DNA of 22,106 nt, taken from positions 1 to 22,106 of the IMG/VR virus record IMGVR_UViG_3300045738_000831, one strand, 5' to 3'. This DNA comes from a virus. Below, in pieces: positions 961 to 21,751 of this stretch. Both the position numbers and the translations under genes were made by a program. Under the pieces are notes generated by a model that did not search any database, was not told where the DNA came from, and saw nothing but the letters and a program-made list of their open reading frames with translations. Within the stretch, counting starts at the first letter, position 1; every line of letters begins with the position of its first letter.

Positions 961-2250
961 TTACTGTAATTTTATCTGTTTGGTAGTTCTTGAAACCCAC
1001 CCCTTACTGGCGCTGTAGGGGCAAATTGTCCACGTATGTGGTTCAGTAAATGAAGTGATATTAATAGCAAGCCGAATAGGGCTTTGGGTTAATAATTTAA
1101 TAGCAGTAGAACCGTCTATTTTTTGGCGATGTACTTCATTTTTATTGATATCATGTGCTCCCACATACCAGTATGAACAGTCATCTGGCTTATCTATTTC
1201 TTCTGGATCAAACTCAAGTATTGCTGTATAACTACTCTTAAATGCTTTTGACCAGTCAAGCTCACCACCGATAATCATTGGATTGGGTGGTGGACTTCCA
1301 TGGCGCGTATGTGATTGAACCGCTTGTAACTTAAAATTAATTCCAGCATATTTTTCATAATCAATCAACTCTCTCTTTGTGCCCAATCCAAACTTACCAA
1401 GATCAGGCACCTCTTTATTAAATTCTTTCGGTTCAGTAGGTGAAGGCGGAATTCCTAACAGGGCTCGCACACGCTTGACATTTTGGACTTCTAAATTAGA
1501 CCACCATGGTTCCGTACACTCGGAATTCCATGGATCATGATCAACAACATGTTGGTTGATGTGAGGTCGGTGATACAAATGATATAGAATAAGTTTATTG
1601 GGGTGAAACAAATCGTATCCATGAGTATATGCTCTTACAGCTAGCGATATTTCTTCTCCATTAAAATATAGCCCCGGGTCGGATGGTACATTCTCAATAA
1701 AATCTCCAGTTGTAAATAAAAAATGCCCAGACACAAAACGTGCAGGTTCCGGTGCTTTTATTTTTCTATAATCATCCATGTATTGCGGTTTATGATGTAA
1801 AATTCCTTGAGGGGTAAATCTATTAAACACTGCTCTAGTAGGAGTGAGATCCACCTCATGCATCTTATCAGTAAAATATGGTGTGCCGCAAGTAGATAAA
1901 ATTGGCTTATCACTACCAGTTTCTTTGATCATTCTCAATAAGATTCTATCCCAATTTTTTACAAACCGATGATGAGAATCTAACTGTAAGATGTAATCTT
2001 CCCCGTCGTAAAATTTTTGTAGTTGGTGACGGGCCCAACATACCCCGCTACTGTACTTCCAGTCAAACGATAATATATTAAAATTGTCTCTATCTTGATA
2101 TTGTGTAAGATACGTATCAGAATTATCTTTCTGCCACGCTATAGCGAATTTTAACCTTCTGGGATTATCTGCCTTTTCAATACAATCCTCTATTGTAGGT
2201 ATAATTTCTGCGTCTCTATAACACGGTATCTGTATGAAGATGTATTTCAT
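961..2250 (-). CDS. GlcNAc-transferase-family glycosyltransferase (Skp1 GnT1-like)
   Basis: This 429-residue protein resembles the PF11397 GlcNAc-transferase family, whose eukaryotic members add GlcNAc to hydroxyproline of Skp1. Visible signatures are PCYRD at residues 9-13, a DXH-type metal/nucleotide-sugar motif in DSHHRF (91-96), a glycine/acidic segment FNGEEISLAVRAYTHGYD (196-213) and HLYHR (224-228). The GT-A-like catalytic part ends near residue 260. Residues about 320-429 form a second, probably beta-rich domain that may bind the acceptor. It starts with ATG at 2250 and overlaps the preceding glycosyltransferase gene by 35 bases, implying coupled expression. Its place among tail genes suggests that it glycosylates a virion protein, but host-surface modification is also possible. 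The family call is fairly secure; the donor sugar and acceptor are inferred. Confidence 0.75.
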   Translation of the reverse strand: MKYIFIQIPCYRDAEIIPTIEDCIEKADNPRRLKFAIAWQKDNSDTYLTQYQDRDNFNILSFDWKYSSGVCWARHQLQKFYDGEDYILQLDSHHRFVKNWDRILLRMIKETGSDKPILSTCGTPYFTDKMHEVDLTPTRAVFNRFTPQGILHHKPQYMDDYRKIKAPEPARFVSGHFLFTTGDFIENVPSDPGLYFNGEEISLAVRAYTHGYDLFHPNKLILYHLYHRPHINQHVVDHDPWNSECTEPWWSNLEVQNVKRVRALLGIPPSPTEPKEFNKEVPDLGKFGLGTKRELIDYEKYAGINFKLQAVQSHTRHGSPPPNPMIIGGELDWSKAFKSSYTAILEFDPEEIDKPDDCSYWYVGAHDINKNEVHRQKIDGSTAIKLLTQSPIRLAINITSFTEPHTWTICPYSASKGWVSRTTKQIKLQ

Positions 2251-3004
2251 CTATTATTCGTTGATATTTATCGGACATACCATACATAGTCAAATGGTTA
2301 ATCCACACGTATGATTTAGAATTATATTGCTCATCGTAATACGTATTGGGCAATTGCTTAATTATTATATCATTTTGATTTATAATATTATTCACTGCTA
2401 TATGATCAATTCCCCACTCTTTAACATTTCCTCGAATATGTAACCATATTGAGAAAAATATATCTTGCATTTTCTTTATATTTTTGATACAAAATAATGT
2501 TGTAGAAATTCTAGGGTCTTCATCAAGACATGGCACAACTAATAAATCGGCTTGGCTTATTTTTTCATATAAGGATGTTATATCTCTATTAATAACATTA
2601 TCTACATCAATGTAAATCAAATCCGAACTATATTTTTTTAAAATTTTTGGTATAATTTTAAACCTAATATTAGCACAATAAGCTTCTTTTTCGCTATATA
2701 ATTTACCGGTGCCGGATTTTGATGAATTTACGAACATTTTATTACTATGTCGTAGAGCGGGGAACGGAGGAAGTGCCGTTTTAGTATTTTTAGTGTTTAG
2801 GTGAGTTTCTTCTGAACTATAGTCCCCCACAAATGAAAATTGATTAATAACTTGATTAATACTTGATTGATCTACGTTAATAAAATGAATATATACTTGT
2901 TTAAAGGATACATTCTTATCTAAAAAATATAAAAAGCAATTTAGATATTTTAGATATTTTAAATCACAAACTAGAAAGATTATAGGCTTAGATGTATCAT
3001 ACAT
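2216..3004 (-). CDS. GT-A-type glycosyltransferase, DXD motif
   Basis: The gene encodes 262 residues when started at the ATG at 3004, which overlaps the upstream stop by eight bases. ATGs at 3007 and 3043 are possible, but 3043 would lengthen the overlap. The N-terminal strand (KPIIFLVCDLKYL), the segment YSEKEAYCANIRF (103-115) and YIDVDNVI (131-138), with a DVD metal-binding motif at 133-135, are typical of GT-A nucleotide-sugar transferases. GIDHIAVNNII (198-208) fits the acidic catalytic region. No signal peptide or membrane helix is evident. The gene is clearly more AT-rich, with more Lys/Asn/Ile codons, than its neighbours, which suggests separate acquisition. Its 3' end overlaps the next glycosyltransferase by 35 bases, so the two probably act in one pathway. 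The substrate is unknown. Confidence 0.65.
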   Translation of the reverse strand: MYDTSKPIIFLVCDLKYLKYLNCFLYFLDKNVSFKQVYIHFINVDQSSINQVINQFSFVGDYSSEETHLNTKNTKTALPPFPALRHSNKMFVNSSKSGTGKLYSEKEAYCANIRFKIIPKILKKYSSDLIYIDVDNVINRDITSLYEKISQADLLVVPCLDEDPRISTTLFCIKNIKKMQDIFFSIWLHIRGNVKEWGIDHIAVNNIINQNDIIIKQLPNTYYDEQYNSKSYVWINHLTMYGMSDKYQRIIDEIHLHTDTVL

Positions 3005-3647
3005 CATCCAAATCCGGAACTTCAGGTGGGCGAGGGGCGACAAAATCCGGGGCTGGTAGTAATAAGGTTGGCCAGAACGAAATTAGTTTTGGGACCGTAT
3101 CATATTGTTTAATATTTATATCTTGAGGAAGATCCCTAAGCATTTTTTTAATATGGCCTATCTCTTCTACGCCGTCAGTATCACTCTGCTCTAATGACAT
3201 ATTAAATTCAATATCGAGCTGTTTTAAGGCGCGATTGCGGTACCATTTTATTACCCCTACCCAAGTCTCCTGACACAGGCCGATATCATACGTAATAAAA
3301 TTAACATGCCATGGATCGACATCTAAATCCCATGGGCTTATATCATAATTATACCTCCAACCTTTTCTAAAACTTTGATGTAAATTCTCAGAATATGCAT
3401 TCCAAGGGATTAATGTAAAGGGAATATCACCGCGACCGTCAAAGGAGCTATTTCCCATTAACTCAATAAAATCTACACATGTCATGCTATCCGGTGCTTC
3501 AGGTAGCCGTGAATTGATAATTAAATTACCACTAGGCAAAACAAACACTAAGGCACAGTCCTGTAACCTCAATTGATTATTCTGGATTAAACCGCAATGA
3601 TACTGTTTTACCTGATCTAAGAGATTTAATTTTGTTTGTTTATCCAT
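2997..3647 (-). CDS. Unknown 216-residue protein of the tail operon
   Basis: I do not recognise this protein. The ATG at 3647 is preferred over an in-frame codon at 3665 because it begins just after the upstream stop (TAA, one base, ATG). The sequence is soluble-looking, Trp-rich and acidic, with no membrane segment. The middle (about 85-140) has several aromatic clusters (IPWNAY, KGWRYNYDISPWD, DVDPWHVNF). Residues about 165-180 are Asp/Glu-rich, and the last 20 residues are proline-rich and acidic (PAPDF, APRPPEVPD). Lying between a giant adhesin-like gene and two glycosyltransferases, it could be an assembly chaperone or a small baseplate/fibre component, but nothing in the sequence decides between these. 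Confidence 0.7.
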   Translation of the reverse strand: MDKQTKLNLLDQVKQYHCGLIQNNQLRLQDCALVFVLPSGNLIINSRLPEAPDSMTCVDFIELMGNSSFDGRGDIPFTLIPWNAYSENLHQSFRKGWRYNYDISPWDLDVDPWHVNFITYDIGLCQETWVGVIKWYRNRALKQLDIEFNMSLEQSDTDGVEEIGHIKKMLRDLPQDINIKQYDTVPKLISFWPTLLLPAPDFVAPRPPEVPDLDDV

Positions 3648-3648
3648 T

Positions 3649-6561
3649 TTACTGTAATACTGCAAAGAATATTGTGTTTACTGTTCTAGGATCTGCATAT
3701 AAACTATATGGTAATGAGTCTAAAGCAGTAATTTTATCTGGGTAGCATATCCGGAATTGTCTCTTATTTTTTGCTTGATACATACTCGGATCATCTACTA
3801 AAAACGTGTTAGTTCCTCCTCCAGGTAGCGACATAGATGTGTTCGCTTGATGTGTCACTCGGTAAGCTGCCGGCATATCTTGATGGTGTAAGGTAGGAAC
3901 AGTAATAAGATCACCATTAGATGCTTGAGCTATAACAGCATAATCACTAGTTTCCATTTCATTTTGGAACGTTATTAACAATCCATTAAATGTTCCAAAC
4001 CCATAGTCATGAATAGCAAAAACATTTTTCCCGGATGCCAATACATTATGTCTGGTAAACACTTGACTCAGTCCATTAACTTCGCGGCCTCGGGCCGCTA
4101 GCAATTCCGTATATGTATCATCAGTTAATGAAGTTGGCGTCAATAGTTGTGTTTCACCATTTGTATACACTAATCTAAACTCATTCCATGGACCAACATT
4201 ATAACCACCAATTCCGCAAGGTCTGTTATATCCGATATGACTAAACCTATTGAATAAATGCTGACCGTTTTTATATCTACAATAATAGAATGCATCAGCC
4301 CGATATATAGTACCGTAATATGAATCATCTGGTTGTGTAATCCTATAACTTACACCAGCACCAGCGGGTACTATTGGTATGAGCGGGTCACCGGCCTCGA
4401 ACGGTATCGTGGGATCTCCGACGGTGCCGGCAATCGGTGATTGGCCTGGATTACCACCGGTTGGAAGTGTTGCTGGAATAGCGGCGCGGCCAGGAGAATA
4501 TGGATTATAAGGGCCGGCGGCTATTGCTGCGACAGCCGGTACATATGCATGACCGGGTATAACCGCGTTTGGCGGATTTCCGGCGATGGGCTGGTTGGGC
4601 GGATCGGCAGGTATAAACGGTTGATCCGGATCTGCCGCGATAGACGGTTGCAGGGCACCACCTTGCTGTTGAAATGTTGTATTCAGCAGATAATATGACG
4701 AGGTCCAAAAATCAGTAAAGAATAATTCATTTGTGCAAGGGTTAATTGTAATGTCTCTCAATCCAAAATGACCACCGCTACGCATACCTGTTTCATTTAC
4801 ATCTGCTAATGTAGATGCAATAACTGGGATAACCATCACCTTTCCAACCTCACCAGGGCCATCTGCAGTACCATCAGTCCCCGCTAGTGAATAATTACCG
4901 TTAAGAGCACCAACAATTTTACGTACACCTCTACCGGATTTTCCATCCAATGAGCCGCTACTTTGGTTATAATAAGATGATTGAGTTGGAGACGTGGATA
5001 CATACAAATGATCTCCGGTTGCCCAAGCCGTATTTCTAGCGGCGCCGGGACCGCTCCCGGGATCTCCGACTGGTTTTCCTGGGTCGTCATTACCCATATT
5101 AATAACCTTCATGTCACCTGATATAAACAAATCACCTTCGCGCCACGTTTTATAATCCCGATCTGCGTCATGTTGTGCAGACATAGCTAGATCCGGTCCA
5201 TATGGTTCACCGACTAACAATTCAAAGATACTGTTACCACCGAAACCATGGCCTATGTGAGTCGGTTCGATAGTATGAATGTTGGGAATATCAGGGATGT
5301 CCGGAGCTGTTGGGGGTGTTGCTCCAGATCCAGTGGTGGTAATTTCAGTAGGATCTCTCTTTGCATTACGAGCACCGCTATGAACTACATAAATCCTGCT
5401 TGCTGAGCGAGATACTGCTTCTTTTGACATTGTCGGTAGCCATTGCTTATTAATATTACCGGGCTTTCCAAAATAACCAAAACCTAGGTTCATTTCACGT
5501 TCGCTCGACCACCAATTTGGATCTAAGTCATTTTGTGAATTATTGGAAATAAAAACCTTAATCCCTTTTATGCCTGTTGTATCCATGTTAGGATTAGCCG
5601 AGGTACCTTCAACGTCATCTTTATAACTTGAATGCCAAAATCTATGAATGCAATATTTGCTTGTATAATCGTCTGTTAATACCCCCGGGGCTGTACCAAT
5701 GACCGGAAGCCGTAAAATGGCGGCGTGCGCTGCTGCTTTTGTGTTGGTTACTTTATTATAGTCTGGAGATATCCCAAAATAAAGATATGTTGTAGTGCAA
5801 GCCGGGTAATTAGCAGCAAAAAAATCTTGTGGTACATGAGCAATATCTAAACAGTCAATATTAACATTATCGGTTGCCATTCTTGCCCATGTTACCAAGT
5901 TCGAACCATCACGATCCATTCGGTATATAGCTGATTGACCGTGATCACATCTACATGCAAAAAACACATAATCATGCACATCATCAAAAGCGACTGCGCA
6001 TGGATCGTAATAACCGGGGCCGCCGTTGCTTAAGTCTTTAACAACCTCGATCCCAGTACCGTCTAAGTTACAGCGGAGGATGGCCTCACCTTGACCTCCA
6101 AGCTCACGCCACGTCCACCCATCTTTATCGTTAGAATCTAAGCCTTGAACTCGTGGATAAGTTCCGCGGCAGAAATATATTTTGTTATATTTAGTGTCAA
6201 CATATATATTACCAGAATGTAGATATTTGTTATAACTTACACCAGTAGCATCAACTTCTAAAGACCCTCTTACTATATCCGCCTGATCTGTGGGTAGTGA
6301 CCATATTCTCTCGCGAGTATCACCGTTAAGATAAAAAGTACCGTACGCGGCGACCTGGCCGGCTTGGGCTTTGTCCGCCTTATACTCTGTTTGAGGTACA
6401 TAATAACTGCTTAATGTTGAAACTTCAGCACCAAGAGTTCTCCACTCTGTATAATTAGCACCAGAGGCAACTGAAGTGAGTAGGAGTTCATTACCACCTG
6501 AGTATAAATAGCCGGTTGGTAGGCGGTCAAGTTGTGTAAGTGTAAAGCTTTGTGTTGCCAT
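3649..6561 (-). CDS. Large virion adhesin with propeller-like repeats and Pro/Ala linker
   Basis: This is a 970-residue protein starting at ATG 6561 after a 47-base gap. Residues about 115-240 contain blocks resembling YWTD/LDL-receptor-type propeller blades: GNIYVDTKYNKIYF, then AILRCNLDGTGIEVV, then YDPCAVAFDD and AIYRMDRDGSNLV. Another blade-like segment is at about 603-627 (DITINPCTNELFFTDFW). Residues 638-735 are a Pro/Ala/Gly-rich, locally GC-rich insert. The C-terminal 230 residues are beta-rich, with no motif I can name. There is no signal peptide, transmembrane helix or catalytic motif. Propellers in phage tails are usually interaction modules, so a receptor- or glycan-binding fibre/baseplate protein is inferred. 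The propeller assignment is by pattern only and the number of blades cannot be counted reliably. Confidence 0.7.
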   Translation of the reverse strand: MATQSFTLTQLDRLPTGYLYSGGNELLLTSVASGANYTEWRTLGAEVSTLSSYYVPQTEYKADKAQAGQVAAYGTFYLNGDTRERIWSLPTDQADIVRGSLEVDATGVSYNKYLHSGNIYVDTKYNKIYFCRGTYPRVQGLDSNDKDGWTWRELGGQGEAILRCNLDGTGIEVVKDLSNGGPGYYDPCAVAFDDVHDYVFFACRCDHGQSAIYRMDRDGSNLVTWARMATDNVNIDCLDIAHVPQDFFAANYPACTTTYLYFGISPDYNKVTNTKAAAHAAILRLPVIGTAPGVLTDDYTSKYCIHRFWHSSYKDDVEGTSANPNMDTTGIKGIKVFISNNSQNDLDPNWWSSEREMNLGFGYFGKPGNINKQWLPTMSKEAVSRSASRIYVVHSGARNAKRDPTEITTTGSGATPPTAPDIPDIPNIHTIEPTHIGHGFGGNSIFELLVGEPYGPDLAMSAQHDADRDYKTWREGDLFISGDMKVINMGNDDPGKPVGDPGSGPGAARNTAWATGDHLYVSTSPTQSSYYNQSSGSLDGKSGRGVRKIVGALNGNYSLAGTDGTADGPGEVGKVMVIPVIASTLADVNETGMRSGGHFGLRDITINPCTNELFFTDFWTSSYYLLNTTFQQQGGALQPSIAADPDQPFIPADPPNQPIAGNPPNAVIPGHAYVPAVAAIAAGPYNPYSPGRAAIPATLPTGGNPGQSPIAGTVGDPTIPFEAGDPLIPIVPAGAGVSYRITQPDDSYYGTIYRADAFYYCRYKNGQHLFNRFSHIGYNRPCGIGGYNVGPWNEFRLVYTNGETQLLTPTSLTDDTYTELLAARGREVNGLSQVFTRHNVLASGKNVFAIHDYGFGTFNGLLITFQNEMETSDYAVIAQASNGDLITVPTLHHQDMPAAYRVTHQANTSMSLPGGGTNTFLVDDPSMYQAKNKRQFRICYPDKITALDSLPYSLYADPRTVNTIFFAVLQ
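4357..4650 (-). repeat. Pro/Ala/Gly-rich low-complexity insert in the 970-residue protein
   Basis: Residues 638-735 of the encoded protein consist of irregular repeats of the type IPA-PP, PIAG, IPG, VPAVAAIAAG and GDP-IPI. The DNA is visibly richer in G+C than the flanks. It sits between a propeller-like strand segment and another beta-rich segment, and so reads as an extended linker or insertion within a folded region. Confidence 0.6.
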
Positions 6562-6608
6562 CGCGTATTAATTATTTAAGATCAAATACATAATATCAAG
6601 AACTTTCA

Positions 6609-9413
6609 TCAATACCCAGTACCGCCACCAGTGCCCCCGGAACCTCCGGTGCCTCCGGTGCCTCCTGTACCTCCTGTGCCTCCTGTCTGGCCGCCTGTGC
6701 CAGTGCCAGAATCAGTTGATGGGTTATACCCTGCAGCTGGGGGTTGAGAAGATGCAGAACCAGTTAAATCTATGTCATAATAAAGTGTATTATCCAGCGC
6801 TTCTACGATATAATTCATTCCAAACGTCTCCCAAGGCTTACCTTCAGTTACAATTGGTACGAACTCACCTTCTGTCCTCAAATAATCTGTACTAAATTCT
6901 GTTGGACAATGTAAATCTGATTCTGCAGCCGGTACATCCATAGGTAAACACGAAGTGTAACAAGCAGTGTCAAATAATGGGTTGTTTGTATGTCTACCGT
7001 AACAATTAAGAGATCTAATCTCACAATTCATAACCTTATCGGAGGTAGAAAATGCGAAACCAACTCTTAAGGCAGATGTTGGTGGTAATAACATCTGTGT
7101 TTCTTCTGGTAATGTATAATCAAGATATTCATGGAACTCTTCGGAACCTTGAGGGCGCATTGCAACGCGAACTCTAGTACCGCATTCCTCTAACGCTACC
7201 TTCCATGTGCTAAATTTAACATCTCCTTCATTAGTAGAAATTTGTTGGTATAGGCTTGAAGATAAAGCAAAACTTGTAACGCTTGGAGTTGTAGTCAAGT
7301 CATCCCACTGATTCCATGGACCTGATGCTAGTACTATTTGCTCCGGTACCCGCAATGATAATGCGTCAGCATCCTGACTATTTGTGTATGTGCCGGCGAA
7401 CCCGCCAGCTACATCAAAACCGACTGCTAGATAACCGTTTGACATGCCATCAGCACTCAATATTGCACAGTCAGAGTGTAAGGTAGTATCACACCCGCCG
7501 GTCACTCCGGTATGTTTAGTCATGCCCATACCGCCACTGTAAACAGTTAAAGCTGAACAGCTAGCGAAGGTGGTAAGAGGTGTATTTCCAGTACCGGTAT
7601 ATGTTGGTAACACTGCTGTTAGTTGTGCTGCTCCAGTGTACGGTTTATATCCTAACGATTCACCCACACCACCCGGTTGAAAATATGAAACTTGATATTT
7701 AAATAAATCTGTATGTATATTATTATACGGGAAATAATTAGAATATGATGTATATGGAGATATTGAATTACCGCCAGTAAAATCAAGCGGTTCAGTCATC
7801 AAATTACCGTAATAATCAAAAACTCGGGCACCTTGTTCACCAGTTACTCGTACTGGATCTGATGCATCATAAAAGAATATACAAAACCCATTTCCAGGCT
7901 TGTAGTTTGGATCTAACTCATATGAATTATTACCAGAAAAGGATGTTAGTCGAGTTGTCCATGGGCCATGGGCGGATAATCCAAACCCATCTGCAGATAA
8001 GAATCCACTTAAAGGTTCAGTATATATAGCTCTATTATTCGCGCCTAAAGGAGCGCCATAATGCCATAAGGCAATGTCTGCGTACACTTCAATATCACTA
8101 TATTTGTTATAGATATTCTCTGGTAAGAGATATGTAGTATTGTACATAGCCGGAAAAGGATACTCTACTCCGGGTTCATACTCAAAAGTAGAGCACCCTA
8201 ACCACAGTGTATTTCTTCCATCATCCTTATCGCCTACAAAATCAACATGCAGCTGACCGGTGCTAAAAAGATCGGTTGGGTCAGTTAATAAAGCTTTTTG
8301 ACAGTCCCATAATGTGAAACTCATATCCTCAATATGTATTGGATTACCAGAGATCGAGCCCATCGCCGCGAGGGTCGGTTCATAAAAATACATTTCATCT
8401 GGCCAAGTATCATCAGGCTTTACTACTAATGTAGCATAGGGTTGCCCGGGATTTCCATATCTAACTACACTATCACCCGGATCAAACAGCGTACCACCGC
8501 TATGTGTACCATCCCAGGATGTAGAAAGTGAGAATGAAGTTCCATAATTAGTTGAATTACTGATATCAAAATGATATTCAATTCCGCGGAACATTGTATG
8601 TTGAGGAAGGCAGGCGCTGTAACCACAACACCCGTTAGCCGGAGCGCGGTCGGCACCCCAGCAGGCGTGGTGTGATCCGTTTTGTGGATTTGCTGAAAGA
8701 GCGTTGGGATTCTGTAGCCAATCTTGATCAGCATCATAAGACTCCCCGTTCTGAACTTGTGTAGTGGTCATTGACTCCCGGAACTGGCCGGCGCAGACTG
8801 AAACCATAACTGTATTCATCGGTTCTGTCAAAGATGGATTAACGTACATAGCCGATAATGCATTTTCAAACTTTATTATATCTCCAGTAAGTCCAGGTTG
8901 TAGGGAGCCGGTGGGCACAAATTCTCCAGATAAATAAGGCCACATTGCAAAATTAATATCCATTATATCAAAATCTGGTTTAATACAATCAATATTATCT
9001 GGTACTAACTCCTCATCCTTTCTCTTAAGATAGTATGTAAACAGATATTTATAACCAACAAAATCTATACCAAAAAACGTATAGACAAATGTTTTGGATT
9101 GCTTATTATATGAAACCTGGGGTTTTTCTACTTTAACAATATTAATCTGTTGGCGAGGACCTAGAAATGAATAATTACTCAATGTTTGAAATAAACTATC
9201 ATCTCTTGGGTATATTCTCTGAATAGCAGGATCATCTACCGGGAATTTTGATACTTCCGGGTATATAATCTTATAGTTGGTGGCACTAATTGTAGCGTGA
9301 AGCATTGTCCTGAACGTAAACACCTCTTCTGTCATTTCATCATACCAATACTCCCCAATTTCCATTGGTTTGTTCTGTAGCGTTAACCAACTTGGTATAA
9401 TAAGATCAGGCAT
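6609..9413 (-). CDS. Large multidomain virion protein with Gly/Thr-repeat C-terminus
   Basis: A 934-residue protein starts at ATG 9413, two bases after the previous stop. Residues 1-165 form a mixed alpha/beta head (EYWYDEMTEEVFTF, YTFFGIDFVGYKYLFTYYL) that may be a baseplate- or fibre-attachment domain. Residues about 276-357 (YHFDISNST, STSWDGTHSGGT, LVVKPDDTWPDEMYFYEP, AAMGSISG) resemble the small cupredoxin-like beta domain frequent in structural proteins of marine phages, though the usual copper-type ligands are not all present. A long beta-rich region follows, with DxDG-like and aromatic turns and many cysteines (C251, C262, C263). The last 40 residues are a Thr-Gly-Gly repeat tail. No enzymatic motif is visible. 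A tail/fibre role is inferred from size, composition and position. Confidence 0.7.
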   Translation of the reverse strand: MPDLIIPSWLTLQNKPMEIGEYWYDEMTEEVFTFRTMLHATISATNYKIIYPEVSKFPVDDPAIQRIYPRDDSLFQTLSNYSFLGPRQQINIVKVEKPQVSYNKQSKTFVYTFFGIDFVGYKYLFTYYLKRKDEELVPDNIDCIKPDFDIMDINFAMWPYLSGEFVPTGSLQPGLTGDIIKFENALSAMYVNPSLTEPMNTVMVSVCAGQFRESMTTTQVQNGESYDADQDWLQNPNALSANPQNGSHHACWGADRAPANGCCGYSACLPQHTMFRGIEYHFDISNSTNYGTSFSLSTSWDGTHSGGTLFDPGDSVVRYGNPGQPYATLVVKPDDTWPDEMYFYEPTLAAMGSISGNPIHIEDMSFTLWDCQKALLTDPTDLFSTGQLHVDFVGDKDDGRNTLWLGCSTFEYEPGVEYPFPAMYNTTYLLPENIYNKYSDIEVYADIALWHYGAPLGANNRAIYTEPLSGFLSADGFGLSAHGPWTTRLTSFSGNNSYELDPNYKPGNGFCIFFYDASDPVRVTGEQGARVFDYYGNLMTEPLDFTGGNSISPYTSYSNYFPYNNIHTDLFKYQVSYFQPGGVGESLGYKPYTGAAQLTAVLPTYTGTGNTPLTTFASCSALTVYSGGMGMTKHTGVTGGCDTTLHSDCAILSADGMSNGYLAVGFDVAGGFAGTYTNSQDADALSLRVPEQIVLASGPWNQWDDLTTTPSVTSFALSSSLYQQISTNEGDVKFSTWKVALEECGTRVRVAMRPQGSEEFHEYLDYTLPEETQMLLPPTSALRVGFAFSTSDKVMNCEIRSLNCYGRHTNNPLFDTACYTSCLPMDVPAAESDLHCPTEFSTDYLRTEGEFVPIVTEGKPWETFGMNYIVEALDNTLYYDIDLTGSASSQPPAAGYNPSTDSGTGTGGQTGGTGGTGGTGGTGGSGGTGGGTGY
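6643..6687 (-). repeat. Five tandem 9-base units coding Gly-Gly-Thr
   Basis: Five consecutive 9-base units (on the plus strand cctccggtg twice, then cctcctgta, cctcctgtg, cctcctgtc) encode the Gly-Gly-Thr run near the C-terminus of the 934-residue protein. Units differ at only one or two positions. Degenerate copies extend on both sides. Confidence 0.85.
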
Positions 9414-9414
9414 A

Positions 9415-12400
9415 TTAATAACTTACAGGATAGCTGAGAGGTTCAATGTTTTGAATTGTAGTTCTATGCATTGATAGATTTACCTTTCTGCTTAATACTG
9501 ATATAAATTTTTCTGTTGTAAAATCAAAATCATATTTTTCAATGATAAGATAATTAGGGGTTTCTAGGAATAAAATATCCTTAATTATATCAAAATTGAG
9601 GATATTATTATTAATCTCATTTAATACATCCACGTCATCGTGATACTTCAAAAACACAGCACTTAAAGCTGAAGATAATGGTTCAATCTGAGTCGAATAT
9701 ATATTTCTCATATGGATTGTACCGGTTGTATCGCGTCTTTCAGATATTGGTAATTGTGAAGTTAAAGAAGTGGAGGAAGTATACCTAGTTTGATACTTGG
9801 GATCTAATGTTACTATATCAATATCATGAAATGTAGCTTTATGAGAATTTACAGCTATACCATATCGGGTATGATCCGAGAACATTCCGGCGGATAAGCC
9901 GGGTAGACCGTCCCATGATGATCCATTCCAATATGTGCCGGTTTTAACATTTATCTTAATTTGAGAATTAATATCAAGTTCATGATTATCCCGAAGTTTA
10001 GCAGAATTGGGTCCCCATGGACTGACATAGCCGGATACAACGTCACCAGTCTTTTCAACACGAATTCTAACAGTAGACCCGGCCCATCCACCGCCGACAA
10101 AATTTGACCAAGCTCCTGATAATCCTGTTATTGGAGTATCATCTAGTCCACCATTATGAATTGCGACGAACCATTGTAAGCTTGAATAATCGCCTCTTGA
10201 AACGTTAAAAGTAAGAAATTGTGTTCTAGGGAGGGATAGTGTAACGCCATGAGAATCAGGCGTATTTGCGGGGATATAATTAAAATGACTAATAATACCA
10301 GCAACACCGGACCCACCGGTAGACGTTACTACAGTATCCAGAAAATATACCGACTCTTTGTTTTGGCTCGCTTTACCAAACCAAAGGCCGCCGGCCATCG
10401 TCCCGGAATGGTCTGTGGTAATGTTACCTTCAGAATCTACTCCCCAAGGCGCGTCACGATGCGTGACAGGGTAATATTGATCACCCAACCCAATTGGCGG
10501 GGCTGGGTTGGTGTGCGAAGGCCACGTGGCTATAAACGGATTAAATTGTGTATTAATAAAATGACCGTCTAGTGATTGATTGTTACTTACAAATGTTCCT
10601 CCGGGCATTGTGAACCAGTTATCAGAAGTCATAGATGCAAATGAAGTGAAAGAATCTGGTAAGCCGTAAGGTATCAAATCTCCAGATTTTTGACCAGCTG
10701 TTTGCCGTGTAGGGTGAGTGTGTTTATATAGGGCAAATTCATTACCGTATATATCAGTTCGCCATTCGCTTATAACTTCATTTGAGATTAGCAAATCGCC
10801 CAACCGGTCTTGAATAGGTAGGTCATGTAATGGTTTTGTGGGATATAAGTCATCATTCGCCCATATATTTTTAAAATTACCGCGCCAGAAATCTATCTTA
10901 TCATATCTCTTACTAAGACCGGATGGTTGCATACCAGTAGACTCTTCGCGGGATTGGTAGGCATTGAACTTTGGGAGAATCTCAGTGTCAACTACATCGC
11001 CAGATTTAATATAATTAGACCGATCATGTTTTACCCAATTTACATGTTCGTGATGTGTAATTGGGAATTCTTGATCAAATCTCGTTAACCCTACCCCGGC
11101 GCCATATACATTAGGGTCGGGGTAGGCATATATCTTATTAGGTTTTAATTTACCAACATCAACTTTATACGTTGGATTGTAGCTCGCAAACGTTAAGGTT
11201 CCCATCTTAGATGGTATAAAGAAACCACCCATCTCTCTTAAAGTTTTATATTCTACATTAACCGGGACAGTTAAATGACCGGGATAATGACGATTTAATA
11301 TATTTGCGTGCGGGGAGTCTGGTTCGAACAAAATACCTACAGTATAGTCACTTGCAGCAGCACCGGTTGAAAGATAATAAAATCTAGTACCCATGTATTT
11401 GGTAATCAAATTCTTTTGTTGATGAAATACTAAATTATCATATGTTTTTTCATGACCAATAAAACTACTAAGAGGTAAACTTTCCCAATCTGATATATCA
11501 ATGTTAATTCCGATCCTAGAATTAGACTGTGATACCTTTGTTTTGAGAGGTAGTATACAATCAGATGTAGCTAATGCTGTGTCACACTCTTTAAGATGGT
11601 TTATTACCACCTTTGTCATATCTAAAAAGAGGAGTGGGTCTATATCTTCAATATTTGCAGCTAGCTGAGTTGCTTCTGAGGGCATTAATGTGTGGACGTG
11701 GGGTGGAGCACCGGCATGGCCGAACTGATCTTCACAATTAGGGTGGCAAGGGCTTTGAGCTGGTATAACTTTCCAGTTTTTTACTTCATGCTTATGGTTA
11801 ATATCTTTTTCTTCTGGATGATAGGCAGTTTTTGCCCACCCGTTACCATTCTCATCTACCTCATAAACGTGTAAGTGCTTTTCATCAACAGATGTCTCGC
11901 CTTGTGTCTTGTTTAAGTTTTTAGGATCTAAATCATATTGTACAGGTTGTGTTTCAAACAGCTCTTCTGTTTCAACAACCATTTTTGAACTTATTTTCTG
12001 TATATCCGGTTTCGCAACATTAAACTGAGAAACAAAGCTCTCATCAGAGAGAAGACTCAAGATAAACTTCTTAATGCTCATCTCTACACCCCTATCACTA
12101 CCTTTCATCGTGTTTCTAAACGATGACTGTACAACCTCTTCTCTCTTTTTTACATGATATTGAGTAATCTGTTTAATTTTTCTAGCGAAAAACGGTATAA
12201 TAATATCTAAATCGCGCGGGTTATCAAAATCAATATTAATTAAAAACCTCTTTTCCTCAGCCGTGGTATAATTTAATGTAATATCCTTTAAAAAAGAAAT
12301 GTACATGTCCTTTACATCGGTGCTGTGAGTGTTTATTGATTTATTTTTCTTAGAATACCACTGAGTTACATACTGGTTGTAGTCTTTATGGGCTTGCTTT

Positions 12401-12495
12401 TCAGATACATAAACATTAGTTACGCGATGAAACCATTCTTTATAAGCCAATGGTTGCGTTAACGATTCTGTGTCTATGTCAACTGTATTAGCCAT
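9415..12495 (-). CDS. Giant structural protein: helical head, His-rich middle, lectin-like domain
   Basis: The product has 1026 residues with the ATG at 12495, which overlaps the upstream stop as TAATG. A longer in-frame start at 12558 was rejected. Residues 1-170 are helical and charged, with EEKRFLINIDF-type segments. Residues about 205-270 are His-rich and contain HLH (207-209), HKH (234-236), CHPNC (250-254) and HVH (266-268); further HEH (482-484) and HTH (592-594) motifs follow. Residues about 690-900 resemble a concanavalin/laminin-G-like jelly roll (LWFGKASQNKESVYFLD, VRIRVEKTGDVVSGYV, RYGIAVNSHKATFHDIDI). The C-terminal 130 residues return to mixed alpha/beta. No catalytic site is visible. 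The protein is probably a baseplate or tail-fibre component that binds glycan and perhaps metal; this role is inferred. Confidence 0.72.
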   Translation of the reverse strand: MANTVDIDTESLTQPLAYKEWFHRVTNVYVSEKQAHKDYNQYVTQWYSKKNKSINTHSTDVKDMYISFLKDITLNYTTAEEKRFLINIDFDNPRDLDIIIPFFARKIKQITQYHVKKREEVVQSSFRNTMKGSDRGVEMSIKKFILSLLSDESFVSQFNVAKPDIQKISSKMVVETEELFETQPVQYDLDPKNLNKTQGETSVDEKHLHVYEVDENGNGWAKTAYHPEEKDINHKHEVKNWKVIPAQSPCHPNCEDQFGHAGAPPHVHTLMPSEATQLAANIEDIDPLLFLDMTKVVINHLKECDTALATSDCILPLKTKVSQSNSRIGINIDISDWESLPLSSFIGHEKTYDNLVFHQQKNLITKYMGTRFYYLSTGAAASDYTVGILFEPDSPHANILNRHYPGHLTVPVNVEYKTLREMGGFFIPSKMGTLTFASYNPTYKVDVGKLKPNKIYAYPDPNVYGAGVGLTRFDQEFPITHHEHVNWVKHDRSNYIKSGDVVDTEILPKFNAYQSREESTGMQPSGLSKRYDKIDFWRGNFKNIWANDDLYPTKPLHDLPIQDRLGDLLISNEVISEWRTDIYGNEFALYKHTHPTRQTAGQKSGDLIPYGLPDSFTSFASMTSDNWFTMPGGTFVSNNQSLDGHFINTQFNPFIATWPSHTNPAPPIGLGDQYYPVTHRDAPWGVDSEGNITTDHSGTMAGGLWFGKASQNKESVYFLDTVVTSTGGSGVAGIISHFNYIPANTPDSHGVTLSLPRTQFLTFNVSRGDYSSLQWFVAIHNGGLDDTPITGLSGAWSNFVGGGWAGSTVRIRVEKTGDVVSGYVSPWGPNSAKLRDNHELDINSQIKINVKTGTYWNGSSWDGLPGLSAGMFSDHTRYGIAVNSHKATFHDIDIVTLDPKYQTRYTSSTSLTSQLPISERRDTTGTIHMRNIYSTQIEPLSSALSAVFLKYHDDVDVLNEINNNILNFDIIKDILFLETPNYLIIEKYDFDFTTEKFISVLSRKVNLSMHRTTIQNIEPLSYPVSY

Positions 12496-13445
12496 TAAGG
12501 TGCTTCGGTAGTAGTGGTGGTGGTGGTAGTTGCTAGATATGATTGACAATCGATACAATCCACGTATGTGTCGACGGAATCATCGACGACAATACCGCCG
12601 GCGCAGGATAATGACGATACGGTTGAATTTAGTGTGCCGCATTTTACGATATTACTGTTACCGTAGTCAATATATTGTAACAGGGATCCGGCGCTGCCGT
12701 ATGCGGCGATATCGCCATTATCATTATCAATAATTGCGATTTCACCAGCATCTTCGCCGTTCGGGCAAGGTGTGATGGTGTACACCGGAAGGTTACCGGA
12801 ATTTCCTGGACATACCGTAGATGTGCTACTCGTGGATGAGCTCGAAGACGAGGTCGACGTGCTTGATGAGCTGGTACTAGAGCTTGTGCTCGAACTCGAT
12901 GAGGTTGAGCTCGTGGTAGACGTGGAATATGGAAGCGTTGTAGTTGTTGTTACGGTAGGTGAAGACGAAGACTCAGATACACAATAATCTGTTATAACAA
13001 TATTTGCGGTGCCGGATGTTGTAATACCTTGTACTGCACCGGTCCAGACTGGGGCGGGAGCAGTATATGATGCTCCACTCGCAATATCACCGGTTCTATT
13101 ATTTGTTGTAGCTGCTGAATCTGGACCTTCATGTATATATAACTTAGCGTCGCCTGTGTTATATATCTTAAATCCTTTTCTCGTTGAGCATGCTGCTAAA
13201 ATTTCCTTACTAGTGGTTGACACAGCGGATGCAGTAACTGTTGATGTGCTAGCATATTTTCTCGTGTCACCTAGTATTAATTTTGCAAAGTGATCGGTGA
13301 TATAATCTGTTACAACTGATGAGCCGGCGAACTCACGTATATCCGTATGTTGGGCGGTTACAGGCGGGTGATGCGTATCTGTTCTAGGTATGCGCTCGAA
13401 GCTGCCCCACTTTGCGTCTCTTATACTGTGATTTTCAAAGGCCAT
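12495..13445 (-). CDS. Mucin-like Ser/Thr-rich virion protein
   Basis: A 316-residue protein starts at ATG 13445. Residues 1-155 look like a small globular beta domain (FKIYNTGDAKLYIHEGP, ITTSGTANIVITDY). Residues 157-210 are almost only Ser and Thr. Residues about 211-300 form a Cys-containing domain (VCPGN, TPCPNG, KCGT, SCAGG, DCIDC). The C-terminus is a run of eight Thr followed by Glu-Ala-Pro. Ser/Thr blocks of this kind act as extended stalks and are classic O-glycosylation targets in cellular proteins. Whether this one is glycosylated is an inference prompted by the glycosyltransferase genes downstream in the same operon. The leader is AT-rich with no Shine-Dalgarno motif. The stop overlaps the next start, so translation of the giant protein downstream is probably coupled to it. 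Confidence 0.75.
   Translation of the reverse strand: MAFENHSIRDAKWGSFERIPRTDTHHPPVTAQHTDIREFAGSSVVTDYITDHFAKLILGDTRKYASTSTVTASAVSTTSKEILAACSTRKGFKIYNTGDAKLYIHEGPDSAATTNNRTGDIASGASYTAPAPVWTGAVQGITTSGTANIVITDYCVSESSSSPTVTTTTTLPYSTSTTSSTSSSSSTSSSTSSSSTSTSSSSSSTSSTSTVCPGNSGNLPVYTITPCPNGEDAGEIAIIDNDNGDIAAYGSAGSLLQYIDYGNSNIVKCGTLNSTVSSLSCAGGIVVDDSVDTYVDCIDCQSYLATTTTTTTTEAP
12816..12977 (-). repeat. Ser/Thr block, codon-scrambled
   Basis: This segment encodes residues 157-210 of the 316-residue protein. The amino-acid sequence is nearly homopolymeric Ser/Thr, but all six serine codons and several threonine codons are mixed, so the DNA has no long exact repeat. Small palindromes such as GAGCTC and GTCGAC recur because of this mixing. 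Confidence 0.85.
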
Positions 13446-13460
13446 TATTAATATTTATCG

Positions 13461-13976
13461 TTAAGACGTACTTGTACTAGGATGCCGCCCAATTTGCTCT
13501 GTAAACGGAACACTATGCCCTAATGTGTTAACTATAATCACATATAAATCTAAATCGAATTGATTTAGTATGGGTAGGTCTAGCATAATGTGGTTTTTAT
13601 CAACTACTGTGAACGCTGTTACTTCATATGCAGAGAATGGCGTAAAAGTGCTGGATATGCCTGGGTATGATGAGAAAAGATCCACTGATGTTAGAGGATT
13701 TGTTATATTATGACCGCTAGAGAGGGCGCTTTGGTCAGAAGCACTCAAAAACACCTTTTTAGTGTTAAAAAAATTATACCCTTGGACTGTAATATTAGCT
13801 GTGAATGTAGGATTTAAGGTAATTTTCTCATCACCTTTATTAAGACCGGTTTTAAATATCCTAGTAATAACAGGGTAAGTAGAAACGAATCGACCGGTTA
13901 ACCCAGCACAGCCAGTGGTTGGACAATCCGCTGGATTAAGCGCATCAAAATAATCTGTGGAGTCATTTTTGTTCAT
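13461..13976 (-). CDS. Small Ig/IPT-like structural protein
   Basis: The product has 171 residues. Its ATG at 13976 overlaps the upstream stop as ATGA. Residues about 48-140 (KGDEKITLNP, ANITVQGYNFFNTKKVFLSA, HIMLDLPILNQFDLDLYVIIVNTLG) have the alternating strand pattern and the GYNF turn seen in IPT/TIG-type Ig folds. The N-terminal 40 residues include two Cys (C18, C23) and a TGRFV segment, and the extreme C-terminus is a short Ser/Thr tail. No catalytic residues are visible. Lying directly after the gp15-like gene and before the mucin-like gene, it is probably a minor tail or neck component, but the Ig-like call is by pattern only. Confidence 0.6.
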   Translation of the reverse strand: MNKNDSTDYFDALNPADCPTTGCAGLTGRFVSTYPVITRIFKTGLNKGDEKITLNPTFTANITVQGYNFFNTKKVFLSASDQSALSSGHNITNPLTSVDLFSSYPGISSTFTPFSAYEVTAFTVVDKNHIMLDLPILNQFDLDLYVIIVNTLGHSVPFTEQIGRHPSTSTS

Positions 13977-14671
13977 AAGCTTTTATCGTATCCGGCTGTT
14001 AGATCTATTACATTAACAGGTGTAAATGTTGATAGAATTTCATATATTGGCGGGCATTGTGAATGTACAGCGGGGAACAGCCACCCCTTAATAGTAAACG
14101 ATGTATCAGCTATAACTCGTGCTGGTTGATTGGATTGTATATCGAAGGGGTACTGTAAGGATATATCACCAGACCATAACACCTCTGTTCTTATTTCATG
14201 TACGTCAGATAGTATTTTTGTTGGTAATTTCCATGATATAACTATATAGGGGTTAGTATACACTACAAAATTTTGGAGTATTTGCTCCATATCAGCCTGA
14301 TATTTTGTCATAATTGACATATTGACCCCTATATTAACTGGCACCGGTGGTGGCATATAGTCAGACTTTTCGATCGAAATATCATCTAGTTTTTTAGAAA
14401 CGTGGTGAGACCCGGAGATTTTATTAAACACCCTTTCTGTATCACGTGAAAAGGATGATTGGGTTATTGATACTACAGGTAAGGTGATGTGTTGAGATTT
14501 ATTAATTAAATCGGATAGTATACGAGATTTTGGAGCGTATACATATTTGACTTTAATTGTGTCTTTAACTTCGCGGTCGCGATTATAACGATTAATAACA
14601 ATATCATCAAACGCAGATATAAACTGCAGCATTAGGTCTTTAACTTCAAAATAGTGTGATTGGTTCTTCAC
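13973..14671 (-). CDS. gp15: T4 gp15-like tail terminator / sheath stabiliser
   Basis: This 232-residue protein (T4 gp15 has about 270) matches the order of gp15 features: an N-terminal helix with FISAFDDIVINRYNRD, the strand KVKYVYAPKSRILSDL (T4: ITYASKEHFMMKL), the segment HITLPVVSITQSSF (T4: TILPRINLHLVDF), the block PVPVNIGVNMSIMTKYQADMEQIL (T4: PSPIKMIYELSIFTRYEDDMFQIV), and FTIKGWLFPAV near the end (T4: FEVNGWMYPPV). In T4, gp15 caps the tail tube and sheath and joins the tail to the neck. The start is GTG at 14671, 11 bases after the helicase stop, with no Shine-Dalgarno motif. The match is from memory of the family, not a computed alignment, but the block order makes it the best-supported structural call here. 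Confidence 0.72.
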   Translation of the reverse strand: MKNQSHYFEVKDLMLQFISAFDDIVINRYNRDREVKDTIKVKYVYAPKSRILSDLINKSQHITLPVVSITQSSFSRDTERVFNKISGSHHVSKKLDDISIEKSDYMPPPVPVNIGVNMSIMTKYQADMEQILQNFVVYTNPYIVISWKLPTKILSDVHEIRTEVLWSGDISLQYPFDIQSNQPARVIADTSFTIKGWLFPAVHSQCPPIYEILSTFTPVNVIDLTAGYDKSL

Positions 14672-16685: not shown

Positions 16686-17059
16686 ATGTCCATGTAGTTA
16701 GTTTTATCGTTCTGAGTCATAGGAGCTAAACGCTCCTTAAAATATTTCCAAAACATTTCATTAGCTGGGATGACTTGCATTAAATTACATGCATTCATAT
16801 TAATTGTGCGAAAATTTTGCATTAAGATATCCCACGTAATTATTAGATTTTTTTTTCTTGGGTCATATCTTGGATATCGCCTTGGTGGGGAAAAGTTTAA
16901 TGTCATACGACCATCGATTGAATTGAGAAGATGCTGGCTGTTAGTACATATCATTCTCCTGGTACCTTCCTTGCCCGGTTTGGGAGTTCTCCTGGCAAAT
17001 TTGATCTCAGCTACATTGTCTTGCAAAATGCGCCATAGTTGGTCTGTACCGACATTCAC
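16682..17059 (-). CDS. WYL_2-like (DUF2693, Sm/SH3-fold) small protein
   Basis: A 125-residue protein resembling the WYL_2/DUF2693 family of T4-like phages. It has an opening strand with VAEIKFARR, the family-like RRMICTNSQHLL (34-45), and a closing strand pair NLIITWDILMQNFRTINMNACNLMQVI (about 71-97) that fits the family's conserved 'V-D-GWR-N' ending. Such folds often bind ligand or nucleic acid, but no function is established. The start is GTG at 17059, overlapping the GroES-like stop as GTGA. It is preceded by a clear GGAGG at 17067-17071, which settles the start. The family call is from pattern only. Confidence 0.6.
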   Translation of the reverse strand: MNVGTDQLWRILQDNVAEIKFARRTPKPGKEGTRRMICTNSQHLLNSIDGRMTLNFSPPRRYPRYDPRKKNLIITWDILMQNFRTINMNACNLMQVIPANEMFWKYFKERLAPMTQNDKTNYMDI

Positions 17060-17475
17060 TCACCGTCCTCCAGCAACTCACATATACCGAAAATGCGTTG
17101 TTCATCTAAAAACATTCCATGCTTTATAATTCCAACGTCGGTGACGCTTATATTGCTGACAGGGATTCCCTTATCATTTGGGAAGCAGACGACGTCGCCT
17201 ACCTTTGTCATTTTACAGTTAGGTCCAGCTAATACGACACGACCTAATCGCCATGCCTTAGTACTAGCGTTTAGTGGTACGATGACACCGCCCCTAGACA
17301 CTGTTTCATTATCTACGGTATCTACATACTGAGCCAAAAGTACATCATCATATAATTTGGATAGTTTATAACCTAATAAGGTAAAATTATCTTCAATGTG
17401 TGTCTCTAGATCAATTAAGCTTCTCTTTACGGCTAGTTTGTCAACATCGACGCGATCATGTTCAGTTCTTTTCAT
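17056..17475 (-). CDS. GroES-like co-chaperonin (gp31-type role)
   Basis: The 139-residue product has a helical N-terminal extension (1-40) followed by a GroES-type beta barrel: LYDDVLLAQYVD (41-52), RGGVIVP (61-67), WRLGRVVLAGPN (75-86), KVGDVVCFPNDKGIPV (91-106) and a final strand FGICELLED (129-137). GroES proteins cap GroEL. In T4, the phage-encoded gp31 replaces GroES so the large capsid protein can fold, and a similar role is inferred here. The mobile loop that contacts GroEL would be around residues 53-62 (TVDNETVSRG), which is short. It overlaps the upstream gene by 14 bases and starts at ATG 17475. The barrel resemblance is good; the working role is inferred. Confidence 0.68.
   Translation of the reverse strand: MKRTEHDRVDVDKLAVKRSLIDLETHIEDNFTLLGYKLSKLYDDVLLAQYVDTVDNETVSRGGVIVPLNASTKAWRLGRVVLAGPNCKMTKVGDVVCFPNDKGIPVSNISVTDVGIIKHGMFLDEQRIFGICELLEDGE
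17067..17071 (-). promoter_or_regulatory. Strong ribosome binding site GGAGG for the WYL_2-like gene
   Basis: A perfect GGAGG lies seven bases before the GTG at 17059, inside the end of the GroES-like gene. It supports this non-ATG start. Confidence 0.7.
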
Positions 17476-17869
17476 ATATCTTTTCCAACTTACCTAGGTC
17501 TATTAGACCGGATTCTACATAAAGACTTATCTCTCTCTCAGATAATTCAAGATTGCGAGCTAAAATACTGACTATTAATTGGGATTTTTGGGGTGAGTCT
17601 GTTTTTTTCTTCTTTATATAATTGATTCGCTTTCTCGATACTCTAGGTAATATATCCGTCAAGAACGCGTACTGTTCCTGTTTTGTATCGAAAATAGGAT
17701 ATAACCAGTTGGTTGTATTGTTTACAATAGTGCAGCACTGAGTGGAATACATGCTAACCCATCTATTTATTAAATAAAAATTAAATGTAGATTCACTATC
17801 GATATTATTGAGAGTATCTTTTCTCTTATACACTAAGATGTCGTTGATGTAATCAAAGATTGTTGTCAT
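17462..17869 (-). CDS. gp62: gp62-like clamp-loader small subunit
   Basis: This 135-residue protein is close in size to the short gp62 proteins of T4-like marine phages; T4 gp62 itself is 187. The layout fits: an opening FDYINDILVYKRKD helix, FNFYLINRWVSMYSTQCCTIVN (T4-like pattern 'F-V-N-LS-P--V--A-MN'), then a YAFLTDILPRVSRKRINYIKKKK segment matching the family's FL---PR-KRF-KW-KK, and a C-terminal helix pair (LSEREISLYVESGLIDLGKLEKI). With gp44, gp62 loads the sliding clamp onto DNA for replication and late transcription. The gp44 and clamp genes are not in the window. Its ATG at 17869 overlaps the epimerase stop by 17 bases and has GGAGG nine bases upstream. Confidence 0.58.
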   Translation of the reverse strand: MTTIFDYINDILVYKRKDTLNNIDSESTFNFYLINRWVSMYSTQCCTIVNNTTNWLYPIFDTKQEQYAFLTDILPRVSRKRINYIKKKKTDSPQKSQLIVSILARNLELSEREISLYVESGLIDLGKLEKIYEKN

Positions 17870-18758
17870 TTATCCAATCCTCCAAATTCATTTTAGGTTC
17901 CCACTGTAATAGCTTTTTAATTTTAGTTATGTCTGCCTGAGCGTGTGACAGCTCGGCATCACGAGGTGGTAAAAATTCCATCTCACCGTCAACCATCTCA
18001 GCTAAATTTAAAATAGAAAGTGCCTTACCAGTACCTACATTGAAGACCTCACCATATATTTCTTTATTTTGACTAGTTGCTCCGAGCATATTAGCAGCAA
18101 CTACATCATTAACGTGTGTAAAATCTCTTGTTTGCGTACCATCACCAATAACTGTTAGCAACTTATTGCTTTTCTTTTGTGTGAGGAATAAACCTATAAC
18201 TGGCGCGTATTGTCCTCGTACTGGTTGGCGCGGACCATACACATTAAAGTATCTAAATATAATTGTTTTAAGGCCATAAACTTTATAATAGAACTTACAT
18301 AAATCTTCACCACACGCCTTACTTATTGAATAGGGGTTAAGACATTGCCGGGGCATTTCCTCGTTAAATGGTACTTCATTCTTTAGCCCATAGACAGCTG
18401 ATGTAGATGATAGCAGGAATCGTTCCACACCATGTTTATTCGACAGCTTTAACAAATTAGCTGTGCCTTCTATATTTGTCCGTAGAGATTTTGGTGGGTC
18501 TGTAATAGTAGGCTGGATCCGGGCTTCAGCTGCTAAATGAAAAACGTGGGACGGTTCCTCACGTTCAAATATATCAGACATTGCACCGTAATTGGTAATA
18601 TCAGATGAATAATTCTTTGCGTGGGTGGTCCAATAAAAGCATTCATTGGAATTTGCTGATTTATTATCAGTAACTACTACGTCATGGCCTCTTTTTAGTA
18701 GTTCATCTACTAAATTGCTACCAATAAACCCGGCTCCACCTGTGACAAGGCACTTCAT
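17853..18758 (-). CDS. NAD-dependent sugar-nucleotide epimerase (UDP-glucose 4-epimerase-like SDR)
   Basis: A full-length 301-residue extended short-chain dehydrogenase. The NAD-binding motif GGAGFIG is at 7-13, the catalytic Ser region is SSTSAVYG (117-124) and the YxxxK pair is Y143/K147 in NPYSISKAC. RYFNVYGPRQ (169-178) and GDGTQTRDFTHVNDV (205-219) are signatures of the GalE/WbpP-type epimerase group that acts on UDP-hexoses or UDP-HexNAc. A few members decarboxylate or dehydrate instead, so the exact reaction is not fixed. Its ATG at 18758 overlaps the DUF366-like stop as ATGA, placing it at the end of the sugar cluster. Confidence 0.85.
   Translation of the reverse strand: MKCLVTGGAGFIGSNLVDELLKRGHDVVVTDNKSANSNECFYWTTHAKNYSSDITNYGAMSDIFEREEPSHVFHLAAEARIQPTITDPPKSLRTNIEGTANLLKLSNKHGVERFLLSSTSAVYGLKNEVPFNEEMPRQCLNPYSISKACGEDLCKFYYKVYGLKTIIFRYFNVYGPRQPVRGQYAPVIGLFLTQKKSNKLLTVIGDGTQTRDFTHVNDVVAANMLGATSQNKEIYGEVFNVGTGKALSILNLAEMVDGEMEFLPPRDAELSHAQADITKIKKLLQWEPKMNLEDWINDNNL
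17879..17883 (-). promoter_or_regulatory. Ribosome binding site GGAGG for the gp62-like gene
   Basis: GGAGG ends nine bases before the ATG at 17869, inside the last codons of the epimerase gene. Confidence 0.65.
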
Positions 18759-21747: not shown

Positions 21748-21751
21748 GGTT

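Follow-up and report, generated by a model that had tools for sequence, protein, structure and literature searches.

The viral fragment IMGVR_UViG_3300045738_000831 (22,106 nucleotides, analyzed over its full length and called the window below) encodes at 961–2250, on the minus strand, a glycosyltransferase of family GT60. Relatives of this enzyme are encoded in at least 553 viral loci; in 60 non-redundant loci the upstream neighbors of GT60 are often tail-fiber proteins, and the gene directly upstream is frequently rich in serine, threonine, and proline (S/T/P). We favor, as moderately probable, a self-glycosylation in which GT60 works as a polypeptide N-acetylhexosamine (HexNAc) transferase and primes O-glycans on the Ser/Thr-rich tail or fiber proteins of the phage itself. 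Among the readings considered, this one is best supported by the enzyme family and its motif, the fold, the position in a tail operon, the recurrent adjacency to S/T/P-rich tail proteins, the soluble partners in the cassettes, and the glycoproteins of the Xanthomonas jumbo phage XacN1. The initial annotation of the window had supposed that the phage glycosylates its own fiber, on a pure Ser/Thr block and with a sugar that it makes; the first part agrees with the present results, the last two find no support in them.

The product of 961–2250 (429 amino acids) matches the Pfam family GlcNAc (PF11397) at 3.3e-63 (214.7 bits, for a curated cut-off of 21), with the profile at 96–350 and an additional N-terminal piece at 2–45, and it matches phrog_24687 over its whole length. 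Judged from its sequence, its GT60 identity is beyond doubt, and the GlcNAc-transferase family had been named correctly in the initial annotation. The protein consists of a GT-A catalytic domain (about residues 1–310) and a beta-rich C-terminal domain (about 339–425). Several bacterial GT60 relatives align only to about residue 320, short of the C-terminal domain of the phage enzyme. The D-x-H metal-binding motif is intact (D91-S92-H93), with D91 and H93 invariant across 41 relatives.

A structure model built with the 41 aligned relatives has a predicted local distance difference test (pLDDT) score of 89.6. The best-ranked 29 solved entries for this model are all polypeptide N-acetylgalactosaminyltransferases (ppGalNAc-Ts), with Z between 19.7 and 23.3 over 269–291 residues, while the next group reaches 17.6 at most; Foldseek concurs (3.5e-13). 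The ppGalNAc-transferases are the starters of mucin O-glycans. A fold shared by a model does not, by itself, prove the acceptor of GT60. A profile search of the sequences of solved structures with the GT60 alignment gave chance matches only, with the ppGalNAc-T chains not matched at the sequence level, and a Pfam search of the whole protein did not find a ricin-type lectin domain.

In the relatives, an S/T/P-rich gene directly precedes GT60 in 16/56 loci, whereas 43/950 of the other open reading frames (ORFs) are S/T/P-rich (p 1.8e-8). At places −2 to −4 upstream, the count is 12/163 (p 1.3e-4 against the place directly upstream). After masking of the S/T/P stretches, the 16 proteins fall into 10 unrelated families (in locus L090, a globular N-terminal domain is followed by about 340 S/T/P-rich residues), and the S/T/P-rich label needs 5–9 changes on the GT60 tree. 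Pro-Thr repeats occur within 5 kb of GT60 in 14/47 clusters, for 4.4 expected. In an independent sample of 46 records, selected solely because they encode a (Pro-Thr)6 pattern, 11 have GT60; of 46 records selected for poly-Thr, 1 has it (p 0.004). The large tail protein of the window (9415–12558) gives a further comparison. Among its relatives with GT60, an S/T/P-rich gene stands between the tail protein and GT60 in 4/4 (a count that includes L098, whose gene starts 2 bp beyond the distance limit, so that the strict limit gives 3/4); such a gene is found in 2/50 of the relatives without GT60. In L072 and L077, relatives of that tail protein sit just before GT60. The pairing of transferase and mucin-like virion protein put forward in the initial annotation holds, across unrelated phages, for tail proteins rich in Ser/Thr/Pro; it fails for the pure Ser/Thr block.

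The association emerges only when proline is counted, as in true mucins: of the three residue sets compared, S+T gives p 0.27, T alone p 0.08, and S+T+P p 0.027. With a threshold of 24/40 residues, set post hoc (Fisher 1e-5), an S/T/P-rich ORF is present in 32/54 GT60 loci and in 5/38 tail-protein relatives without GT60; because of this post hoc choice, stricter tests were made on other comparisons. The Ser/Thr block of the window and the S/T/P stretches of the relatives might be mere flexible spacers between fiber domains, unrelated to transferases that act elsewhere. Viral contigs often contain runs of Thr or Pro-Thr (each pattern gives at least 120 entries), and most such records are without GT60 (45/46 for poly-Thr, 35/46 for Pro-Thr). 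Spacers would not, however, account for the excess directly before GT60 relative to the remaining genes in these loci, among them those at places −2 to −4, nor for the Pro-Thr repeats near GT60, and we consider this explanation quite unlikely.

Within the window, the best candidate for an acceptor is the 316-amino-acid protein of 12495–13445, encoded on the same strand as GT60. It shows an N-terminal domain, a Ser/Thr block, a Cys-containing domain, and a C-terminal Thr8 tail, and it is without family match; direct homolog searches with this protein, as with that of 2216–3004 (see below), found nothing. The block lies at 12816–12977 (residues 157–210 of the ORF) with 48 Ser or Thr among 54 residues, in the position and with the composition initially described. 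It holds an unbroken run of 37 Ser and Thr (residues 174–210). The densest 40 residues of the protein contain 38 S/T/P, of which 37 are S/T; in every other ORF of the window the S/T density is at most 16 per 40 residues. The block uses all six Ser codons and all four Thr codons, and its DNA shows no tandem repeat. With such mixed codons, the block seems to have been kept as amino acids rather than produced by slippage, and it looks selected at the protein level. A second, short acceptor-like stretch is formed by eight consecutive Thr (12507–12530, minus strand; the protein ends in TTTTTTTTEAP), and resembles the synthetic acceptor KPPTTTTTTTTKPP used to assay the Trypanosoma cruzi enzyme (PMC3769586).

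The genes downstream of GT60 in the relatives include YibB, GT25, GT34, GT2, PLOD-type and GT10 transferases, methyltransferases, and carbamoyltransferases. A membrane-like segment is present in 6/252 of these ORFs and in none of the window. As observations on single loci, L077:11260–17191 is an exchangeable sugar cassette between tail genes that combines transferases of PLOD type and of GT10 with methyltransferases and a YibB-domain protein, and L010:10001–12462 is a tandem pair of GT60 genes behind a 1411-amino-acid tail protein that alternates Cys domains with S/T/P linkers. In phages with poly-Thr tail proteins and without GT60, a GT2-family gene occurs in the tail operon (L094:17614–18729 and L131:7924–8760), and this other enzyme might take the place of GT60.

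Cassettes of this content can also be read as acting on the surface glycans of the host, either the O-chain of lipopolysaccharide (LPS) or the capsule, to exclude other phages or to free the progeny; the proximity to tail genes would then be that of a hypervariable host-recognition cluster. Such a role has been published for pelagimyophages, where glycosyltransferases lie with tail fibers in a host recognition cluster (PMC7029224). The YibB partners, the sugar-nucleotide module of O-antigen type, and the GT60 relatives in bacterial genomes point the same way. On the other side, the GtrA flippase is found in 0/30 GT60-bearing records (the control matched in 7/14 genomes), membrane proteins are as rare as stated above, and the best fold match is with polypeptide transferases. 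Moreover, if host glycans were the target, one would not predict that S/T/P-rich tail proteins from unrelated families are repeatedly encoded right next to GT60. We regard it as unlikely. In bacteria, three loci of Burkholderiales (L324, L331, and L338, from Trinickia, Paraburkholderia, and Burkholderia), possibly with one shared origin, have GT60 immediately after a gene for a secreted protein of MrkD-like, fimbrial adhesin type, another case of an adhesin beside GT60. The same three bacterial GT60 genes also adjoin an ImpA_N gene of the type VI secretion system; the MrkD-like domain and the fimbrial families come from a pooled scan.

The carbamoyltransferases, together with weak matches to TET-associated glycosyltransferases among the partners, could instead suggest that the enzymes help to hypermodify phage DNA by glycosylation or carbamoylation of its bases, and phages do use glycosyltransferases on DNA (work cited in PMC12619734). 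No TET/JBP dioxygenase was found in 30 GT60 records, a weak result since the search gave no control match either. The cassettes are located in tail modules, however, and the fold is nearest to that of polypeptide transferases, so that a role in DNA modification appears very improbable.

Several points weigh against self-glycosylation. A coupling of GT60 to pure Ser/Thr or poly-Thr blocks is rejected. The initial annotation had suggested comparing related genomes for the co-occurrence of such a block with the transferases; taken literally, this comparison gives GT60 without blocks and blocks without GT60. A true S/T run of 20 was found in 0/30 other GT60-bearing records (the pattern matches in G004, G014, G020, and G054 are most likely in other reading frames, and the TCT/TCG-rich matches in G045 and G046 are ambiguous), 45/46 poly-Thr records are without GT60, and the Thr-block relatives of the window tail protein are without GT60. 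The S/T/P measure was picked after S/T alone and Thr alone gave no separation; later tests applied it to other comparisons, and a new sample was used only in the test of Pro-Thr records. About 70% of the GT60 loci do not have an S/T/P-rich gene directly upstream, and S/T/P stretches may serve simply as flexible linkers. In the window, the candidate block is about 10 kb from GT60 and its dense part is without Pro. Self-glycosylation by the window phage would have to carry over from relatives with 36–41% identity and along a long branch of the GT60 tree (3.42), on which the specificity may have changed. The glycoproteins of XacN1 are assigned neither to its GT60 enzyme ORF334 nor to a site (PMC5852040). 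Finally, the authors of the pelagimyophage survey took similar tail-embedded transferases for host LPS modifiers (PMC7029224).

The window contains 21 genes, all on the minus strand and with gaps of at most 47 bp, a spacing that suggests transcription as a single operon. In the downstream direction, there are a methyltransferase-like fragment (recognized by eye), a DegT aminotransferase, a GDP-mannose dehydratase, an RmlD-type reductase, DUF366, and a sugar epimerase. Then come small genes (one of them Cpn10-like), a helicase, a T4 gp15-type tail sheath stabilizer, a 171-amino-acid protein, and the Ser/Thr-block protein. The row ends with three large tail proteins, a 222-amino-acid protein, a possible second transferase, the GT60 enzyme, and a partial gene. 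The sheath stabilizer (13973–14671; PF16724 at 1.8e-19, phrog_227, with matches in T4-like cyanophages) is a marker of the neck/tail module. At least 79 viral loci encode relatives of the first of the large tail proteins (9415–12558, 1047 amino acids); some of these relatives immediately precede GT60 cassettes, and some adjoin baseplate-type genes. The best explanation is that the window comes from a large T4-like phage and covers part of its tail module, and the tail context of the initial annotation is confirmed by the stabilizer and by these baseplate-type neighbors.

The second large tail protein (6609–9413, 934 amino acids) has a Thr/Gly-repeat C terminus and gives a match, in its N-terminal region, to the C-terminal part of a 1042-amino-acid tail protein in relatives. 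A short array of 9-bp repeats at 6624–6686 (minus strand) encodes the Thr/Gly-Gly repeat of this C terminus, a possible additional acceptor stretch. The third protein of the tail operon (3649–6561, 970 amino acids) is without family match in Pfam and PHROG searches. Between the tail genes and the transferases, 2997–3665 encodes the 222-amino-acid protein, which belongs to phrog_20196 (7.6e-9), of unknown function. The Cpn10/GroES-like small gene (17056–17475, minus strand; PF00166 at 1.1e-4) lies within this tail-proximal operon; XacN1 carries a chaperonin too, according to its paper (PMC5852040).

The frame at 2216–3004 (262 amino acids) overlaps that of GT60 by 35 bp, as initially annotated, and its description there as a DXD-type glycosyltransferase can be kept in a weaker form, as a possible GT8-like enzyme with an IDVD motif. 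In a local set, phmmer gives a distant match (1.1e-5) to a protein of a related phage, L131:19425–20240, itself GT8/Nucleotid_trans-like, in an alignment that pairs IDVD with LDAD. Pfam and PHROG give no family for 2216–3004, and its predicted structure is unusable (pLDDT 35).

The sugar-nucleotide module upstream of the tail genes is real, with four family matches: a NAD-dependent epimerase/dehydratase (17853–18758; PF01370 at 3.7e-60), an RmlD-type reductase (19366–20211; PF04321 at 9.3e-17), a GDP-mannose 4,6-dehydratase (20183–21151; PF16363 at 1.7e-113), and a short DegT-type aminotransferase of 205 amino acids (21154–21771; PF01041 at 6.3e-14). The aminotransferase has about half the usual length, and relatives of similar length (L038:11619–12263 and the partial L131:20880–21253) represent a compact phage form. 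Within the same row lies a DUF366 gene (18755–19345, minus strand; 1.1e-21), of unknown function. The claim that the phage decorates its fiber with a sugar of its own making finds no support here, since the module, 14 kb away, belongs to the GDP-deoxyhexose type, while GT60 enzymes take UDP-N-acetylglucosamine (UDP-GlcNAc), which any host supplies. The module may feed other, so far unseen transferases of the phage, or none of this pathway.

In the self-glycosylation that we propose, the soluble GT60 enzyme, most likely with UDP-GlcNAc as donor, would act in the cytoplasm of the infected cell and put the first sugar on Ser or Thr within Ser/Thr-rich stretches of tail or fiber proteins. The acceptor might be the block of 12495–13445 in the window and, in relatives, the Pro/Thr/Ser mucin-like stalk encoded directly before GT60. 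The other transferases in the cassette, together with its modifying enzymes, would extend and decorate the glycan, and the result could be a mucin-like fiber that is stiff, protease-resistant, and either masked or adhesive. Donor, acceptor, extension, and effect on the virion are all putative for the GT60 system. A bolder version, which we hold only tentatively, is that large aquatic phages make true mucins, with Pro/Thr/Ser-stalk fibers densely O-glycosylated by the co-encoded GT60 and extended by exchangeable cassettes, the glycan being swapped like a serotype; the window, with its Ser/Thr block, would be a divergent member. Glycosylated virions are known from few phage isolates. If the proposal is true, the recurrent pairing of a mucin-initiating-type enzyme with mucin-like tail fibers in hundreds of aquatic phage contigs would make glycan-coated fibers a common trait, missed by protein-based models of fibers and receptor binding. 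The vague "LPS-modifying" annotation of tail-region transferases would then become a specific prediction, checkable on existing mass-spectrometry data.

Characterized GT60 enzymes act on protein side chains, namely the hydroxyproline of Skp1 and, for the polypeptide alpha-GlcNAc transferase of T. cruzi (PMC6939170), Thr and Thr-rich stretches, on which mucin O-glycans are started (PMC6939170, PMC3769586). The phage enzyme belongs to the same Pfam and CAZy family as these transferases (Gnt1 of Dictyostelium and Toxoplasma, and the T. cruzi enzyme); it differs in being soluble, in its additional beta-rich C-terminal domain, and in its location in a tail operon, with putative donor and acceptor. 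A Skp1-type hydroxyproline route appears unlikely for the phage enzyme, because a prolyl 4-hydroxylase-type gene (2-oxoglutarate-Fe(II) family PF13640) is found in 1/30 GT60 records, many of which are fragments (the control matched in 2). The ppGalNAc-transferases of animals and apicomplexans (GT27) have the closest solved fold to the catalytic domain (Z up to 23.3). The D-x-H motif of GT27 is like that of the phage enzyme. The two belong to separate CAZy families, and they differ by the absence of a sequence-level PDB match and of a Pfam-detectable ricin-type lectin domain in the phage GT60.

Our literature search found nothing on point for phage mucins or for PF11397 in phages, which does not prove absence. 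In the pelagimyophages, the host recognition cluster has glycosyltransferases among tail-fiber genes adjoining the neck genes of T4-like phages; it is dominated by GT8, the authors read it as modification of the host O-chain, and the available part of the text mentions neither GT60 nor a mucin-like pairing (PMC7029224). In mycobacteriophages Che8 and Rita, phage-encoded transferases glycosylate virion proteins, namely capsid and tail-tube subunits modified at their C termini (Freeman et al. 2023, as cited in PMC12619734, PMC11256854, and PMC10877033), whereas the candidates here are mucin-like tail proteins. GT60 was found in three phage records only, with no mycobacteriophage among them. In XacN1, ORF334 is of the same GT60 family (33% identity); a carbamoyltransferase and YibB-cluster genes come after it, and the S/T/P-rich ORF350 and ORF325 lie 9–12 kb away. 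Unlike the loci with adjacent pairs, XacN1 has GT60 and the giant structural gene ORF325 on opposite strands, and its S/T/P-rich genes are not adjacent. At least two glycoproteins were detected in its virions, and the authors suggested phage transferases (PMC5852040). Among these systems, we would place GT60 and its tail proteins within phage virion glycosylation, as a variant of it and not as a separate kind of system, with the window as an atypical member of a real association.

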